Assembly (NCBI GenBank): GCA_027007005.1
Contig: JALTFO010000306.1
Coordinates: 1-37,943, forward strand
Origin: Candidatus Bipolaricaulota bacterium
Lineage (GTDB): Bacteria; Bipolaricaulota; Bipolaricaulia; UBA7950; UBA9294
Direction of reading: 5' to 3'
DNA length: 37,943 nucleotides
In this document: piece after piece, positions 19,784 through 37,714 of the stretch
How the letters are laid out: each line of letters opens with the position of its first letter
Position numbering within the stretch: position 1 is the first letter of the stretch
Program-made: the position numbers and the translations under genes
The notes under the pieces: generated by a model
Database searches by the model: none
What the model saw: the letters and a program-made list of their open reading frames with translations, nothing else
Told to the model about the DNA's origin: nothing

Positions 19784-21841
19784 ATGAAATCAATCGTAAA
19801 ACGCGATGGTCGCGTCGTTTCGTTTGATGAAGCGAAGATAACAACAGCAATCTGGAAGGCAATGCGCGAGGTTGGCGACGGAGACGAGATCGAAGCCAAG
19901 CGCCTCTGCGAGCTTGTCACTGCCATACTGGATGAGCGCTTTCCAGTGGACTACCCAACGGTGGAGGAGATCCAGGACGTCGTCGAAGAGGCCCTGATCG
20001 AGGCGGGGTACGTCCGCACAGCCAAGGCGTACATTCTGTACCGAAAGCAGCATACTGACCTTCGTCAGTTGGACGGCCTGATGGCCGAAATACCGCTTGT
20101 AGATGATTATTTAAACGATCGCGATTGGCGGGTGCGCGAGAATAGCAACATGAGCTTCTCTCTTCAGGGGCTCAACACACACATCACTGAGCACGTGATC
20201 AGCCGCTACTGGCTTAGCAAGATCTATCCACAGCAGGTGCAGGAGACACACGATCGCGGCGACTTCCATATTCACGACCTGGGGACGTTGGGCGCGTACT
20301 GCGTTGGCTGGGACCTCCAGGATCTTCTCATGCGTGGCTTCCGCGGTGTGCGCGGGAAGGTAGAGTCTCGTCCGGCAAAGCACTTCCGGGTCGCACTATT
20401 GCAGGTAGTGAACTTCATGTACACTCTGCAGGGTGAGTCGGCGGGAGCACAGGCCTTTTCCAACCTGGATACGTACCTTGCTCCGTTCATCCGCTACGAC
20501 AACCTGAACTACGATGAAGTGAAGCAAAACCTGCAGGAATTCGTGTACAACATGAACGTGCCGACGCGCGTCGGTTTTCAGACTCCCTTTACCAACGTGA
20601 CGATCGATCTCGAAGTCCCTAAGTACATGAAGGACGATCATGTCATAATTGGCGGCGTGCTGCAGAAGTCTGTCTACGGTGATCATCAGCATGAAATGGA
20701 CATGTTCAACCGTGCCTTCGCCGAGGTGATGACCGAAGGTGACATGCACGGGCGGCCCTTCACCTTTCCCATTCCCACGTACAACATCACCGAAGAATTC
20801 AACTGGGATAACGAGAACCTTGCTCCTGTGTGGGAGATGACGGCAAAGTATGGCATCCCGTACTTCTCCAACTTCATCAACTCGGACATGAGCCCAGAGG
20901 ATGCGCGCTCGATGTGCTGTCGGCTGCGAATCGACAACCGTGAGTTGAAAAAGCGCGGCGGAGGCCTGTTTGGGGCCAATCCACTGACCGGTTCCATCGG
21001 AGTGGTCACCATCAACCTGCCACGCCTCGGCTACCTGGCTGAGAATGAAGCCGACTTCTTCTCTCGTTTGGAAGAGCTGATGGAGCTTGCAAAGAAGTCG
21101 CTCATCGTAAAGAGGAAAACCCTGGAAAACCTGACCGATCGCGGGCTGTACCCCTACTCGCGCTTCTATTTGCAATCGATCAAGGACCTTGAAGGCGGGT
21201 ACTGGAAGAACCACTTCTCGACGATCGGAATCATCGGGATGAACGAGGCGATCCTCAATCTGTATGGACTATCGATTGCCGATCCTGAGGGGCGCGAGTT
21301 CGCCGCGCGCGTCCTCGACTTCATGCGCGATCGTCTGGCTGACTTTCAGGAAGAGACCGGCGAGATCTTCAACCTGGAGGCAACACCGGCTGAGGGTGCA
21401 AGCTATCGTCTGGCCAAGCGCGACCTGGAGCGCTATCCCGATATCCGCATCTACAACTTAGAGCGCTATGGTGGAAACACTCCGTATTACACCAACTCCA
21501 CTCATCTGCCGGTCGGTCTCACAGAAGATCTGTTCGAGGCGCTCACGATGCAAGACCCGCTGCAGACACGCTACACGGGGGGCACCGTCTTCCACGGATT
21601 CCTCGGGGAGAGCAGTCCGACACCGGAGGCAGCAAAGCGCCTGGTGAGGAAAATCGCGGAGAACTTCCACCTCCCCTACTACACCCTCACCCCGACCTTC
21701 TCCATCTGTCCCAAGCACGGGTACATCCCAGGGGAACACAAGTATTGTCCCAAGTGTGACGAAGAACTAATAGAAAGCCTAAAAGAAAACAAATCTCAAG
21801 GAGGCGTGAAAGTTGAACTACAAAGAAGACCAAGATGGTAA
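19784..21841 (+). CDS. nrdD: anaerobic ribonucleoside-triphosphate reductase, catalytic part without glycyl-radical tail
   Basis: This 685-residue class III ribonucleotide reductase reduces NTPs to dNTPs without oxygen. Residues 1-95 are an ATP-cone allosteric domain (VKRDGRVVSFDEAKITTAI). The core carries MCCRLRID, with the thiyl-radical cysteine, followed by GGLFGANPLTGSIGVVTINL. Near the C-terminus is the zinc-binding segment CPKHGYIPGEHKYCPKC. The frame then ends in an unrelated tail (KVELQRRPRW) before the glycyl-radical loop, which lies in the next ORF in the +1 frame with a 29-bp overlap. The start has GAGGGGG four bases before the ATG. See the finding on the split gene. Confidence 0.95.
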   Translation: MKSIVKRDGRVVSFDEAKITTAIWKAMREVGDGDEIEAKRLCELVTAILDERFPVDYPTVEEIQDVVEEALIEAGYVRTAKAYILYRKQHTDLRQLDGLMAEIPLVDDYLNDRDWRVRENSNMSFSLQGLNTHITEHVISRYWLSKIYPQQVQETHDRGDFHIHDLGTLGAYCVGWDLQDLLMRGFRGVRGKVESRPAKHFRVALLQVVNFMYTLQGESAGAQAFSNLDTYLAPFIRYDNLNYDEVKQNLQEFVYNMNVPTRVGFQTPFTNVTIDLEVPKYMKDDHVIIGGVLQKSVYGDHQHEMDMFNRAFAEVMTEGDMHGRPFTFPIPTYNITEEFNWDNENLAPVWEMTAKYGIPYFSNFINSDMSPEDARSMCCRLRIDNRELKKRGGGLFGANPLTGSIGVVTINLPRLGYLAENEADFFSRLEELMELAKKSLIVKRKTLENLTDRGLYPYSRFYLQSIKDLEGGYWKNHFSTIGIIGMNEAILNLYGLSIADPEGREFAARVLDFMRDRLADFQEETGEIFNLEATPAEGASYRLAKRDLERYPDIRIYNLERYGGNTPYYTNSTHLPVGLTEDLFEALTMQDPLQTRYTGGTVFHGFLGESSPTPEAAKRLVRKIAENFHLPYYTLTPTFSICPKHGYIPGEHKYCPKCDEELIESLKENKSQGGVKVELQRRPRW

Positions 21842-32965: not shown

Positions 32966-33793
32966 ATGAACGATACACGGATGGAGAAGCTGAACAAAGC
33001 GACAGCAACGCTGAAGGACAAGCTGCCGGAGGTACCAGAGATCGCGCTTGTGCTCGGGTCCGGCCTGTCGCAGGCGTTCGGTATCCCCGGTGAAGGGGTA
33101 ACGATCCCCTGGAGCGAGATACCTGGGTTCCCATTGCCCACGGTCGCTGGACATGCTGGACAGTTCTGGGCTGGTGAGGTGAGCGGCAAACAGCTACTCT
33201 TGCAGCGCGGGCGTACGCACTACTATGAGGGTTACTCGATCGACGATGTCGTCTTTGCCACACGCCTGTTCGCCCTGTTGGGGATAAAGACCCTCATCGT
33301 CACCAACGCCTCTGGAGCGATCAACAAGGATTTCTCCGCGGGAGACCTTGTGTTGATCAGCGATCACATCAACATGCTGGGGACAAACCCGCTGCGTGGT
33401 CCAAACCTCGGCGATCTTGGGCCACGCTTTCCGGACATGTCCACTGCTTACTCGCCACGCCTGCGAAAACTGGCCAAGGAGGTAGCAGCATCTACTGGGA
33501 TCTCCCTCAAGGAAGGCGTATACCTGGCGACGCTCGGTCCCTCTTACGAATCTCCTGCAGAGATCAGGGCGTTCCGCGCGTTGGGAGCAGATCTTGTCGG
33601 CATGTCCACCGTCCCCGAAGTGATAGCTGCTCGCCATGCGGGAATCGAGGTGCTTGGAATATCCTGCGCCACGAATCTCGCCGCTGGCGTCGATCCCAAG
33701 GCAACTCTATCACACAAGGAAGTGATCGACACGACGAAGCGCGTAGGGGACGCGATGCGCCGGTTGATCACGGCGATCATCGGTCGTGTCTGA
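32966..33793 (+). CDS. punA: purine nucleoside phosphorylase (trimeric, PNP-I type)
   Basis: This 275-residue enzyme cleaves purine nucleosides with phosphate. Family blocks are IALVLGSGLSQAF with the phosphate-binding loop, PLPTVAGHAGQFWAGEV, LQRGRTHYYEGYSIDDVVFA, VTNASGAINKDFSAGDLVLI, DHINMLGTNPLRGPN, GPSYESPAEIRAFRALGADL with GMSTVPEVIAARH, and SCATNLAAGV. The order and length fit the trimeric guanosine/inosine enzymes. It has SD GGGGGAGG before the ATG. With the adenosine-specific kinase it suggests active purine salvage. Confidence 0.94.
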   Translation: MNDTRMEKLNKATATLKDKLPEVPEIALVLGSGLSQAFGIPGEGVTIPWSEIPGFPLPTVAGHAGQFWAGEVSGKQLLLQRGRTHYYEGYSIDDVVFATRLFALLGIKTLIVTNASGAINKDFSAGDLVLISDHINMLGTNPLRGPNLGDLGPRFPDMSTAYSPRLRKLAKEVAASTGISLKEGVYLATLGPSYESPAEIRAFRALGADLVGMSTVPEVIAARHAGIEVLGISCATNLAAGVDPKATLSHKEVIDTTKRVGDAMRRLITAIIGRV

Positions 33794-33928: not shown

Positions 33929-35185
33929 ATGGCCAATGGCCCTACGCTCAACCCGTTTGAGATTTCTCAGCGGCAGCTCGACAAGTCGGCAAAGAAGCTG
34001 AATCTCGATCCACAAGTGCACGCGCTTCTGCGCGAGCCAATGCGAACACTTGAGGTTCACTTCCCGGTGAAGATGGATGATGGGACGACGAAGTTGTTCA
34101 AGGGATTTCGTGTGCAGTACAACGATGCCCGTGGGCCCACAAAGGGTGGAATCCGCTTCCACCCGGAAGAAACGATCGATACCGTTAGAGCTCTTTCCGC
34201 TTGGATGACTTGGAAATGTGCCGTTGTCGATATTCCATACGGTGGAAGCAAAGGTGGGGTAATCTGCAATCCCAAGGAACTCTCGGCTGGTGAATTGGAG
34301 CGACTCTCCCGCGGTTATATCCGTGCCATTGGCCGTTTTATCGGCCCGGAGAAGGACGTGCCCGCGCCTGACGTGTATACGACCCCGCAGATTATGGCTT
34401 GGATGATGGATGAGTACTCCAAGATGGTCGGATACAACACGCCTGGACTGATCACTGGTAAGCCAATCCCGGTCGGTGGATCGCTCGGACGCGGTGACGC
34501 GACCGCTCGCGGTGCTGTCTACACAATCATCGAGGCGGCCAAGGTTCTCGGCATGAACCTCAAGGGCGCTACTGTTGCCATTCAGGGCTACGGAAACGCC
34601 GGCTACTTTGCTGCTAAATTGATGAAGGAACTGGCTGGCAGCAAGGTCGTCGCCGTCAGCGACTCCCGTGGTGGTGCCTACTCTGCCGATGGAATCGACA
34701 TTGACGCAGCCTTTGAGCAGAAGAAGTCCACCGGTTCCGTCTCCGGACTCGCTGGAACAAAAAAGATCACTAACAGCGAACTCCTCGAGCTCGATGTCGA
34801 CGTGCTCATTCCAGCAGCGATTGAAGGTGTAATCACCGAAAAGAATGCCAATGCCATCAAGGGTAAGCTCATCGCCGAGATAGCAAACGGACCGACGACC
34901 CCTGAGGCAGACGAGATCCTCGTCAAGAACGGCAAATACATCATCCCTGACTTCCTGTGCAACGCTGGCGGGGTAACCGTCTCCTACTTTGAGTGGGTGC
35001 AGAACATTGGCGGATACTACTGGAAACTGGAAGACGTGCACGCGCGGCTGGAGGAGAAGATGGTCGACGCGTTCCATGCCGTCCACGAAATGGCACAGAG
35101 CCAGAACGTCGATAACCGTGTTGCTGCATACATGGTTTCGGTGCAGCGCGTTGCCGAGGCAATGAAGCTACGCGGTTGGGTGTAA
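33929..35185 (+). CDS. gdhA: glutamate dehydrogenase
   Basis: This 418-residue hexameric-type enzyme interconverts glutamate with 2-oxoglutarate and ammonia. The N-terminal catalytic domain has [37 protein letters not shown] and the [13 protein letters not shown] segment. The nucleotide-binding domain has [36 protein letters not shown] lies near the C-terminus. Length and motifs match the enzymes of Thermotoga-like bacteria and archaea. The SD is AGGAGG. It is a single-gene unit with its own strong promoter, leader hairpin and terminator, which suggests high expression. Confidence 0.96.
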
Positions 35186-35261: not shown

Positions 35262-35368
35262 TGGGGTCAGACCTTCGATCTTAGGATTATAATAAATTGC
35301 CGTGGTCTCTTTTATTTGTATCTCATACGAATTAAGGCCAAAATCCTAAGATCGAAGGTCTGACCCCA
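35262..35368. mobile_element. 107-bp MITE/REP-like element with 27-bp perfect inverted termini
   Basis: The element begins TGGGGTCAGACC and ends with its complement GGTCTGACCCCA. The two arms match perfectly for 27 bp and enclose about 53 bp of AT-rich DNA. TGGGGTCAGACC termini are, from memory, common on small elements mobilised by IS200-like REP-associated tyrosine transposases. There is no ORF inside, so it is non-autonomous, and no target duplication is visible, as expected for that enzyme class. It sits directly behind the gdhA terminator. Between it and the next gene (35369-35499) I see only a TAGAAT -10-like hexamer at 35405 with a poor -35. Confidence 0.75.
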
Positions 35369-35499: not shown

Positions 35500-36195
35500 A
35501 TGGGAAATGTAGACCAGCTTGAAGCCTTACTGCGGCCCCCGGAATTGGAGATGCCACCCTACCCGCCGAAGGTGATTACCCTGGCCAGCGGGGAGAAGAT
35601 GGTGGTGCGACAGCTCGATCGGGAGGAGGTGCCGATCCTTCTTGAGGCGATCTACCCGCTACTGTGGGTGGAGCGGGATTATTATGACATCGTATCGGCG
35701 CGCCTATTTGGGGAACTCCTCGCTTATAAGCGCTACCGGGTGAAGAATGAGTACGTCCTCGTCGGGCTGATCGACGGTGTCCTTGCCGGCATCGTCAATG
35801 GGCACATGGTCGATGGGAAGGTGGGGATGAGCTATCACACGCTCACCATCCGCCGCGGCCTGCGCGTGGGCTCGCATCTCTTTGCCGCAAAGATGGAGTA
35901 TCACATGGACTTCCTCAATCAGGAGGAGGTGTTGATCGTCGCTGAGAGCCCGATCGGTTTCCGTCGATGGATGATTGAATACCCGCTGCAGAAGAAGTAT
36001 GAAGTCCCACACGAGCTCGGCGGGGGGCCATCCTGGGTCTTGAACAAGGAGACGTACCTTGCAGCGAAACCGCGCCTTGTCTCCGGGAGCCGCCCTGTCT
36101 CAGCTGAACTTCGCGCCGGGGCGCAGACGATCGTCCTGCCGGAGGAGGAAATTGTTAAGGCACAGGTGCTCGGTGGGAAAGGAGGCGACAAATGA
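35500..36195 (+). CDS. GNAT-like protein in a thiolase/DUF35 operon
   Basis: I do not recognise a named family. The 231-residue protein has a GNAT-like core: strands YVLVGLIDGVLAGIVNGHM and HTLTIRRGLRVGSHLFAAKM, where RRGLRVGSHL resembles the acetyl-CoA pyrophosphate-binding R/Q-x-x-G-x-G/A loop. The first 30 residues are Pro-rich. The C-terminal 50 residues are charged and end GGKGGDK. The SD AAGGAG precedes the ATG. It overlaps the thiolase-like gene by four bases (ATGA), so its job is probably tied to that acyl-CoA enzyme. An acyltransferase role is inference only. Confidence 0.7.
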   Translation: MGNVDQLEALLRPPELEMPPYPPKVITLASGEKMVVRQLDREEVPILLEAIYPLLWVERDYYDIVSARLFGELLAYKRYRVKNEYVLVGLIDGVLAGIVNGHMVDGKVGMSYHTLTIRRGLRVGSHLFAAKMEYHMDFLNQEEVLIVAESPIGFRRWMIEYPLQKKYEVPHELGGGPSWVLNKETYLAAKPRLVSGSRPVSAELRAGAQTIVLPEEEIVKAQVLGGKGGDK

Positions 36196-37373
36196 GGCCG
36201 GTAGCAATCATCGGCGCGGGGATGACGAAGTTCGGCCGCTCCGAGTGGCCGCTCATGAAACTGATGACCACAGCGTCGCTCGCCGCTTTGAACGACGCCA
36301 ACCTTGAGGATGTCGAGGTAGATGGGATTGTCGTTGCCAACATGGGGGCGGCCAGATTGAACAAGCAGACGGCGATCGCCAGCGCACTCGCCGACAGCCT
36401 TAACTTGCTCCCGGCTATGGCCGAATCGGTGGAGAACGGTCCGGCATCGGGTGCCTCCGCGTTCAAGGTCGGTTACCAGGCGATCGCCTCCGGCATGGCC
36501 GATGTTGTCCTCGTCACTGGCGTGGAGATGATGCGCGCAGTGAACAACCTGGAAGCGACGGACTTCGTTGCTAGTCTCTCTCACCCCGAGGCCGAGTACA
36601 TCTACGGCGTCACCCTCCCTGGATTGGCGGGGATGTTCGCGCGGCTGTACATGGAGCGCTACGGTGTAACGCGCGAACACCTGGCGATGGTGGCGATCAA
36701 GAACCATAAAAACGCGATGAAGAATCCCTACGCGCACATCCACCAGACGGTGACCATGGAGGGAATCCTCACCGCTCCAGAAGCTGTTGTGAACAATCCT
36801 CCAATTGCCGAGCCGCTGCACATGTTCGACTGTTGCCCGGTAAGCGATGGGGCGGCATCCGTGGTTCTCGCGACGCAGGAAATAGCCGAGAAGCTGGGAC
36901 GACAGGTTGTGCGCGTTGCCGGGATCGGTCAGGCCACGGACACTCACGCTGTGCATGAGCGACCCGATCCGACGGAACTGACGGCCGTTCGCCTGGCTGC
37001 AGAGAGAGCATTCGCCATGGCTGGACTGACGCCACAGGATATCGACGTCGCTGAGCTGCACGATGCGTTCACCATCCTCGAAATCGCCGAGAGCGAAGAG
37101 GTCGGCTTCTTCAAGAAGGGTGAAGGCCACAAGGCTCTCGCCGAAGGGGTCACCTCGCTCGGTGGGAAGCTTCCGATAAACCCCTCTGGCGGACTGAAGG
37201 CGAAGGGGCATCCGGTCGGTGCGACCGGCGTGGCGCAGCTTGTGGAACTCACCTGGCAGTTGCGCGGCGAGGCTGGAGAGCGACAGGTACAGAACGCAAA
37301 GAACGCCTTTGCCTGCAACTTCGGCGGGTTCGGAAACAACGTTGTCGCCACAGTGCTTACGAGGGAGGGCTAA
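36192..37373 (+). CDS. thiolase-like protein (SCP2/archaeal type) lacking the nucleophilic Cys
   Basis: This 393-residue thiolase-fold protein has the SCP2-type arrangement: IGAGMTKFGR at the N-terminus, PLHMFDCCPVSDGAASVVLA, ELHDAFTILEIAE with H290, NPSGGLKAKGHPVGATGVAQ with H340, and ACNFGGFGNN at the end. The nucleophile loop reads VENGPASGASAF, so residue 84 is Pro where active thiolases have Cys (usual C-A-S-G). Classical thiolysis or Claisen condensation is therefore doubtful; thiolase-fold aldolases such as Ltp2 also pair with DUF35 proteins. It lies between a GNAT-like gene and a DUF35 gene with overlaps on both sides, suggesting a complex. Confidence 0.88.
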   Translation: MRPVAIIGAGMTKFGRSEWPLMKLMTTASLAALNDANLEDVEVDGIVVANMGAARLNKQTAIASALADSLNLLPAMAESVENGPASGASAFKVGYQAIASGMADVVLVTGVEMMRAVNNLEATDFVASLSHPEAEYIYGVTLPGLAGMFARLYMERYGVTREHLAMVAIKNHKNAMKNPYAHIHQTVTMEGILTAPEAVVNNPPIAEPLHMFDCCPVSDGAASVVLATQEIAEKLGRQVVRVAGIGQATDTHAVHERPDPTELTAVRLAAERAFAMAGLTPQDIDVAELHDAFTILEIAESEEVGFFKKGEGHKALAEGVTSLGGKLPINPSGGLKAKGHPVGATGVAQLVELTWQLRGEAGERQVQNAKNAFACNFGGFGNNVVATVLTREG

Positions 37374-37714
37374 TGATGGATGAGAAAGTATACGGTGCTC
37401 GCTGCAAAGACTGCGGCAAAGAGACCTACCCGGCACACGCTCGTTGCCCTGAGTGCGGATCGGAGAATCTAGAGCCGATCGAGATCACGGGAGAGGGGAA
37501 GGTGCTAACCTACACCGATCTGTACGCGTTGCCGCTTGATTACGAGCGACGCTACCTGCGCCTGGCGATCGTCGAGCTGGATAGTGGCCTGCGCGCCACC
37601 GGACAGCTCTTAGATGAGAAGCCCAAAATCGGAAAGCGAGTAAAGACAACGATCGGTGTAGTGCGGCAGAGCGGTGATCGCAAGATCCATGGCCTGCAGT
37701 TCGTGCCGGTCTAA
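37373..37714 (+). CDS. DUF35 zinc-ribbon/OB-fold protein (acyl-CoA binding)
   Basis: This 113-residue protein has a rubredoxin-like zinc ribbon with two CxxC pairs (CKDCGKETYPAHARCPECGS) followed by an OB fold (GEGKVLTYTDLYALPL, LRLAIVELDSGLRATGQLL). DUF35 proteins form complexes with thiolases, in archaea bridging thiolase and HMG-CoA synthase to pass acyl-CoA, and with Ltp2-type aldolases in actinobacteria. Its ATG overlaps the thiolase-like stop by one base (TAATG). No HMG-CoA synthase is seen before the window ends. A strong hairpin follows the stop codon. Confidence 0.88.
   Translation: MMDEKVYGARCKDCGKETYPAHARCPECGSENLEPIEITGEGKVLTYTDLYALPLDYERRYLRLAIVELDSGLRATGQLLDEKPKIGKRVKTTIGVVRQSGDRKIHGLQFVPV

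Follow-up and report, generated by a model that had tools for sequence, protein, structure and literature searches.

The thiolase fold is combined with a DUF35 protein in several described systems, which differ in catalytic residues, third partner and substrate. The archaeal acetoacetyl-CoA thiolase/DUF35/HMG-CoA synthase complex (6ESQ/6ET9) has the nucleophilic Cys and belongs to a mevalonate context, and the biosynthetic multicomponent acyltransferases PhlABC and MucABC add a KAS III-like third subunit that handles acyl groups, with a Cys present in PhlC. The steroid aldolases Ltp2-ChsH2 and Sal-Shy, which have a hydratase partner, are without this Cys, and catalysis by Ltp2 and Sal depends on the Tyr of a YDHF/YDCY motif (PMC12329534). 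The Cys is likewise missing from the eukaryotic SCP2-thiolase-like protein TbSLP, which has no DUF35 partner, binds malonyl-CoA (5AB7) and displays weak malonyl decarboxylase activity (PMC12329534), and from ST0096 of Sulfolobus tokodaii (4YZO), which has no known GNAT partner or function. In the allantoin pathway of E. coli, the AllFGH oxamic transcarbamylase, found with the allantoin genes, converts oxalurate and phosphate to oxamate and carbamoyl phosphate (PMC11326118). The known oxidative (barbiturate) pathway of pyrimidine degradation uses a barbiturase of the AtzD family (AtzD/TrzD) and a hydrolytic ureidomalonase.

The window analyzed here, a stretch of 37,943 nucleotides from a Candidatus Bipolaricaulota bacterium, carries a three-gene module (Table 1) in which the product of the middle gene has a thiolase fold with Pro in place of the nucleophilic Cys. 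The thiolase ORF scores over cut-off with PF00108, PF22691 and PF02803 in Pfam and with NF004720 in NCBIfam, and P84, which lies in VENGPASG (V/I-E-N-G-P-A-S-G among relatives), aligns with ACASG of 7yvy and 6esq, at the nucleophilic position. Hence the Cys of the CxSG motif that marks a functional thiolase is missing, and the GHP His and the HDAF/NEAF residue are present. A search of a genome collection returned 57 related loci, and every one of the 56 that span the site reads NGPASG, across about 20 phyla; the hosts include Bipolaricaulota, Riflebacteria/Ozemobacter, Hydrogenedentes, Bdellovibrionales, KSB1, Verrucomicrobia, Ignavibacteria, Methylomirabilis, Lentisphaerae, Kiritimatiellae, Eisenbacteria, Acidobacteria, Chlorobi, Neomarinimicrobia, Elusimicrobia, Bacteroidota, Planctomycetota, a Clostridiaceae MAG and a Nitrososphaerales archaeon. 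Such fixation rules out a sequencing error or local mutation. The module is sparse and patchily spread in the samples of Clostridia (1 of 291 genomes) and of the class to which the Ignavibacteria locus belongs (2 of 149), which added no further types of neighborhood.

Table 1. Coordinates of the three-gene module in the window and of the ten-gene operon at other loci
Feature	Location	Strand	Basis
GNAT-fold partner protein, 231 aa	window, 35500-36195	+	AlphaFold2 pLDDT 85.7, Foldseek
ATGA, 4-nt overlap of gnat stop and thiolase start	window, 36192-36195	+	sequence
Thiolase-fold protein, 393 aa, Pro at nucleophilic Cys site	window, 36192-37373	+	Thiolase_N/Thiolase_C_1, NF004720
P84 codon (ccg), catalytic Cys position	window, 36441-36443	+	Pro in 56/56 loci, 52/52 aligned proteins
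H290 codon, HDAF motif	window, 37059-37061	+	52/52 aligned proteins
H340 codon, GHP motif (KGHP)	window, 37209-37211	+	52/52 aligned proteins
DUF35 protein, 113 aa, zinc ribbon and OB fold	window, 37373-37714	+	PF12172, PF01796
Ten-gene operon, Ignavibacteria	L155, 320-10967		
Ten-gene operon, Lentisphaerae	L154 with L190		
Ten-gene operon, Chlorobi	L160 with L057		
Ten-gene operon, Bacteroidota	L161 with L084		

The Pro proteins form a single clade in the tree (support 100/99), and Cys-type homologs of the same class (L018-L029), which read ACASG or ACATG at about 40% identity, are a separate set without a GNAT gene. N82, G83, P84, A85, S86, H290, D291, H340, P341 and N376 are fully conserved among the 52 aligned proteins, and the invariance of P84, H290, D291, H340 and N376 indicates a site that is under selection and has not decayed. 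Conserved loss of the Cys with retention of both His motifs implies that other chemistry takes place on the common fold. No Cys is invariant in the alignment, and the best conserved, C215, is found in 51 of the 52 proteins, which together with the intact fold is what favors either an ordinary thiolase whose nucleophile is C375 or C215, or else a scaffold that has lost catalysis. However, C215 lies in the DCCPVSDG loop, where catalytic-Cys thiolases, 6esq among them, also keep a nearby Cys, and C375, raised in the preliminary description as a possible nucleophile, is a Cys in only 43 of the 52 and is an unlikely substitute. A dead scaffold is at odds with the invariance of both His motifs and the Asn and with the catabolic genome context, and either version of this explanation is considered very improbable.

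The AlphaFold2 model of the thiolase, a monomer (pLDDT 90.5), has its best Foldseek matches in 6et9, 6esq, 4yzo and 7yvy, and TbSLP with malonyl-CoA (5ab7) and Ltp2/Sal stand lower in the list. The archaeal complex is the best fold match (E 1e-44) and supplies the nearest PDB relative of the DUF35 protein (6esq_E), but differs in its Cys and in having HMG-CoA synthase as third partner. ST0096 is sister to the Pro clade (99/97), a placement that is tentative because of its long branch; it has TILEI..SE..G.FKKGEG in common with the clade, but has Ser and not Pro at the site. TbSLP is a distant relative (24% identity). An aldolase of the Ltp2/Sal type, one of the readings first proposed for this locus, would account for a thiolase fold without nucleophilic Cys and for the DUF35 partner, but an invariant His (HDAF) stands where YDHF/YDCY has Tyr, the structures closest to it are those of ST0096 and the archaeal thiolases, which rank far above Ltp2 and Sal, and the neighborhood holds no hydratase or steroid genes, all of which leaves little room for such an aldolase. 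A complex of the HMG-CoA synthase or PhlABC type is ruled out by the GNAT fold of the third gene product. Fatty-acid beta-oxidation was likewise rejected, since the thiolase query found no second thiolase in the window genome and the context differs.

The GNAT-like protein has no sequence match in Pfam, NCBIfam or PDB and was placed by fold search alone: with its AlphaFold2 model, again a monomer, Foldseek returned 180 PDB matches at E<=1e-3, the top ones being GNAT acetyltransferases (best E 1.5e-7, with moderate TM of 0.4-0.5). The protein is 53-62% identical between phyla. The CoA loop of GNAT enzymes follows the consensus (Q/R)xxGx(G/A), and here it is degenerate (R119-G-L-R-V-G124, with an invariant R122 where Gly is usual), so that CoA binding by this protein is not assured. 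The DUF35 protein scores over cut-off with zf-ChsH2 (PF12172) and just below it with OB_ChsH2_C (PF01796). The gnat gene lies directly upstream of the thiolase gene at 55 of the 57 loci, the exceptions being the archaeon, where it is absent, and L087, which is truncated; the DUF35 gene is also present at 55 of the 57, and the order gnat, thiolase, duf35 is kept nearly everywhere. In the window the genes overlap end to end, with a single nucleotide common to the thiolase stop and the DUF35 start (TAATG, 37373), and the three products presumably form a fixed complex of a thiolase dimer with DUF35 and the GNAT-fold subunit. The Pro, its conservation among relatives (named beforehand as the check to be made), the two His motifs, the DUF35 partner, the overlaps and the GNAT-like third component, whose gene lies outside the interval 36192-37714 then quoted, had all been put forward in the preliminary description and are borne out.

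That description had also called the combination unrecognized, in agreement with the literature searched, which covered AllFGH, the urate cluster and Cys-less aldolases and gave neither the gnat/Pro-thiolase/DUF35 combination nor a description of the cluster under the topics DUF35-uracil, DUF1116/DUF2877, barbiturase/ureidomalonase or thiolase-GNAT, weak evidence because many subscription papers lie outside its coverage. The Cys-less thiolase clade and its partner are new, and the catabolic operon is probably new as well. If the reading of the gene context given below holds, clear functions open to testing follow for the gnat, DUF35 and Pro-thiolase families, which databases leave unnamed or list as "thiolase domain-containing protein".

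The wider gene context lies outside the window, and was for that reason missed at first. Clustering of flanking genes yields AllH (PF11392), FdrA (NF004760, over cut-off), AllG (PF06545) and a PF04199 cyclase as recurrent neighbors, and extended contig DNA gives a full ten-gene order of gnat-thiolase-duf35-allH-fdrA-allG-cyclase-xdhFAD-xdhFeS-xdhMo (Table 1). FdrA, AllG and AllH are homologs of the AllFGH subunits, and all three matches (PF11392, NF004760 over cut-off and PF06545) occur in order in L048 and L155; unlike in E. coli, they accompany XDH, a cyclase and the thiolase module. At least one of AllH, FdrA, AllG, cyclase or XDH lies within about 5 kb at 32 of about 45 loci outside Bipolaricaulota. 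The order is cyclase-gnat-thiolase-duf35-xdh in the Clostridiaceae MAG, and in Bipolaricaulota xdh-fdrA-allG-cyclase is an operon separate from the three-gene module, 21 kb from the thiolase in one genome (G004). The XDH-type Mo subunit scores under every curated equivalog cut-off. In three related small genomes a protein of about 360 aa is encoded between fdrA and allG (L200 6904-7986, L198 3113-4195, L199 1589-2671), with a weak match to PRTase-CE (21.7 bits, cut-off 27). In the Nitrososphaerales archaeon (L086), the Pro thiolase and duf35 are convergent with a cyclase and no GNAT gene is found there; other parts of that genome hold AllG and fdrA (L201) and several XDH-type Mo subunits.

AllG is found in 26 of 30 Pro-thiolase genomes, the other four giving no AllG, vs 1 of 14 controls (Fisher p 6e-7, with kinship ignored). 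Within the window's own family, genomes with and without the Pro thiolase differ in XDH (12 of 17 vs 1 of 16, p 2e-4) and in AllG (12 of 17 vs 2 of 16, p 1e-3), and carbamate kinase is over cut-off in 12 of 15 module genomes, the window's included, vs 2 of 14 controls. In the window genome itself, a 2.67-Mb MAG (G000), contig C162 ends in xdhFAD-FeS followed by a truncated xdhMo, genes of the same Mo hydroxylase as in the operon. AllG, FdrA and cyclase of the operon kind were not found in this assembly, and because the contig ends inside xdhMo, a gap in the assembly may account for the lack of fdrA-allG-cyclase, which follow in G003.

Clues to the substrate come from variant clusters. L200 has the order fdrA-X-allG-AOR-cytosine-deaminase relative-cyclase-uridine phosphorylase, in which the phosphorylase scores 292.9 bits with TIGR01718 (cut-off 280.3); L176 has AOR-deaminase relative-PurU-cyclase-uridine phosphorylase-gnat-thiolase; and in L202, dihydropyrimidinase-allH-fdrA-allG-xdh, a dihydropyrimidinase (TIGR02033 537.6, cut-off 393) occupies the place of the cyclase. 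The oxidase, a tungsten AOR instead of XDH in L200 and L176, and the ring hydrolase are thus swapped for enzymes of the same kind of function, with pyrimidine salvage genes added. A Mo or W hydroxylase, a ring hydrolase and a ureido-cleaving enzyme, the genes expected of an oxidative pyrimidine pathway, are found together. The PurU-type formyltetrahydrofolate deformylase inside the pyrimidine-type cluster lies at L176 5762-6646 (416.8 bits, cut-off 286).

The same layout of oxidation, ring opening, carbamoyl transfer and CoA step could serve another cyclic ureide or N-heterocycle, such as hydantoins, creatinine-like compounds or thymine only. A variety of lactams are opened by enzymes of PF04199, hydantoinases too fall within the dihydropyrimidinase model, and the deaminase falls just short of the cytosine-deaminase cut-off (421 vs 438); with the L200 uridine phosphorylase over its cut-off and beside the cyclase, such a substrate is improbable. 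A purine pathway, in which the Mo enzyme would be a purine hydroxylase, the cyclase would open xanthine or a related ring, AllFGH would remove a ureido group and the thiolase complex would act on a later fragment, has on its side an adenine deaminase next to xdh, read by eye in both G003 and the window genome, PNP in the window at 32966-33793, the known role of AllFGH in allantoin breakdown, and the position of the Bipolaricaulota module in an operon apart from xdh-fdrA-allG. Several module genomes, however, carry a urate-type cluster elsewhere, which encodes an XDH of its own, an M20 peptidase, carbamoyltransferases and either carbamate kinase or SsnA (530, cut-off 455.5); it resembles the urate gene cluster of PMC12507026 and argues against a purine substrate for the operon. 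The uridine phosphorylase, cytosine-deaminase relative and dihydropyrimidinase of the variant clusters also speak against purines. The known anaerobic purine routes need no thiolase-type step, and a purine substrate is regarded as unlikely. In the window genome, contig C141 (L182 6624-13322) encodes an M20 peptidase, carbamate kinase, two OTC/YgeW-like carbamoyltransferases, an ABC transporter and a second XDH-type Mo subunit, a cluster that resembles anaerobic urate degradation.

The preferred reading is that the module carries out the final, CoA-dependent part of an anaerobic oxidative pathway for pyrimidine bases (uracil, perhaps thymine too) that recovers carbamoyl phosphate, to which we assign equal chances of being right and wrong; the class of pathway is well supported by gene context, and we infer the identity of the substrate, the order of steps and the last step. 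Judging from the gene families, an enzyme with Mo (XDH-type) or W (AOR) would first oxidize uracil to barbiturate, and the PF04199 cyclase, or else an enzyme of the dihydropyrimidinase type, would then open the ring to ureidomalonate. Ureidomalonate is the next homolog of oxalurate, and in a third step AllH/FdrA/AllG would transfer its carbamoyl group to phosphate to give malonamate and carbamoyl phosphate, from which carbamate kinase would make ATP. The first two steps would follow the logic of the known oxidative pathway, but with a PF04199 cyclase in place of the AtzD-family barbiturase and phosphorolysis in place of hydrolysis. Counting against the scheme are this difference in barbiturase family, the low scores of the Mo subunit, the four module genomes that gave no AllG, the failure to find AllG, FdrA and cyclase in the window assembly, and the degenerate CoA loop of the GNAT-like protein. 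In L043 an amidase-type nitrilase is encoded between the cyclase and gnat, which suits an amide intermediate.

In the fourth step the GNAT/thiolase/DUF35 proteins would convert the C3 unit (malonamate or malonate), which bears a beta-carboxyl group, to acetyl-CoA and CO2, or a thymine-derived methylmalonyl unit to propionyl-CoA and CO2. Because there is no Cys, the usual acyl-enzyme cannot form; Pro84 would rule out an acyl-Cys intermediate and make the CoA chemistry non-thiolytic, the invariant His pair and the Asn may stabilize the enolate that remains when a malonyl-type CoA ester is decarboxylated or split at a C-C bond, and acyl groups may be moved to or from CoA by the GNAT subunit. The simplest fit would be a malonyl-type ester that undergoes decarboxylation or CoA-dependent cleavage to acetyl-CoA, for which TbSLP offers a distant precedent, and decarboxylation specifically is speculative chemistry with a small chance of being correct. 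The broadest claim, of an undescribed anaerobic, ATP-yielding pyrimidine pathway in about 20 phyla, with phosphorolytic formation of carbamoyl phosphate from ureidomalonate and a last step in which a new Pro-thiolase/DUF35/GNAT enzyme type turns a malonyl-type unit into acetyl-CoA without acyl-Cys, is tentative and somewhat more probably wrong than right as a whole. If the context reading is true, it adds a further route of pyrimidine degradation beside Pyd, Rut, URC and barbiturate, by which anaerobes that are for the most part uncultured would conserve energy via carbamoyl phosphate, and the Pro-thiolase module may mark an unrecognized energy-yielding pathway.

A glutamate dehydrogenase gene lies upstream of the module in the window's genus (window 33929-35185) and directly after duf35 in unrelated small-genome bacteria (L177 13908-15236), an arrangement that may reflect ammonia handling. 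Between glutamate dehydrogenase and gnat, the window holds a perfect 27-bp inverted repeat with a 53-nt loop (35262-35368, TGGGGTCAGACC...), related copies of which occur on eight or more further contigs of the window genome; it looks like a palindromic element of the REP/RAYT type. The window also encodes an anaerobic (class III) ribonucleotide reductase at 19784-21841, consistent with an anaerobic host.
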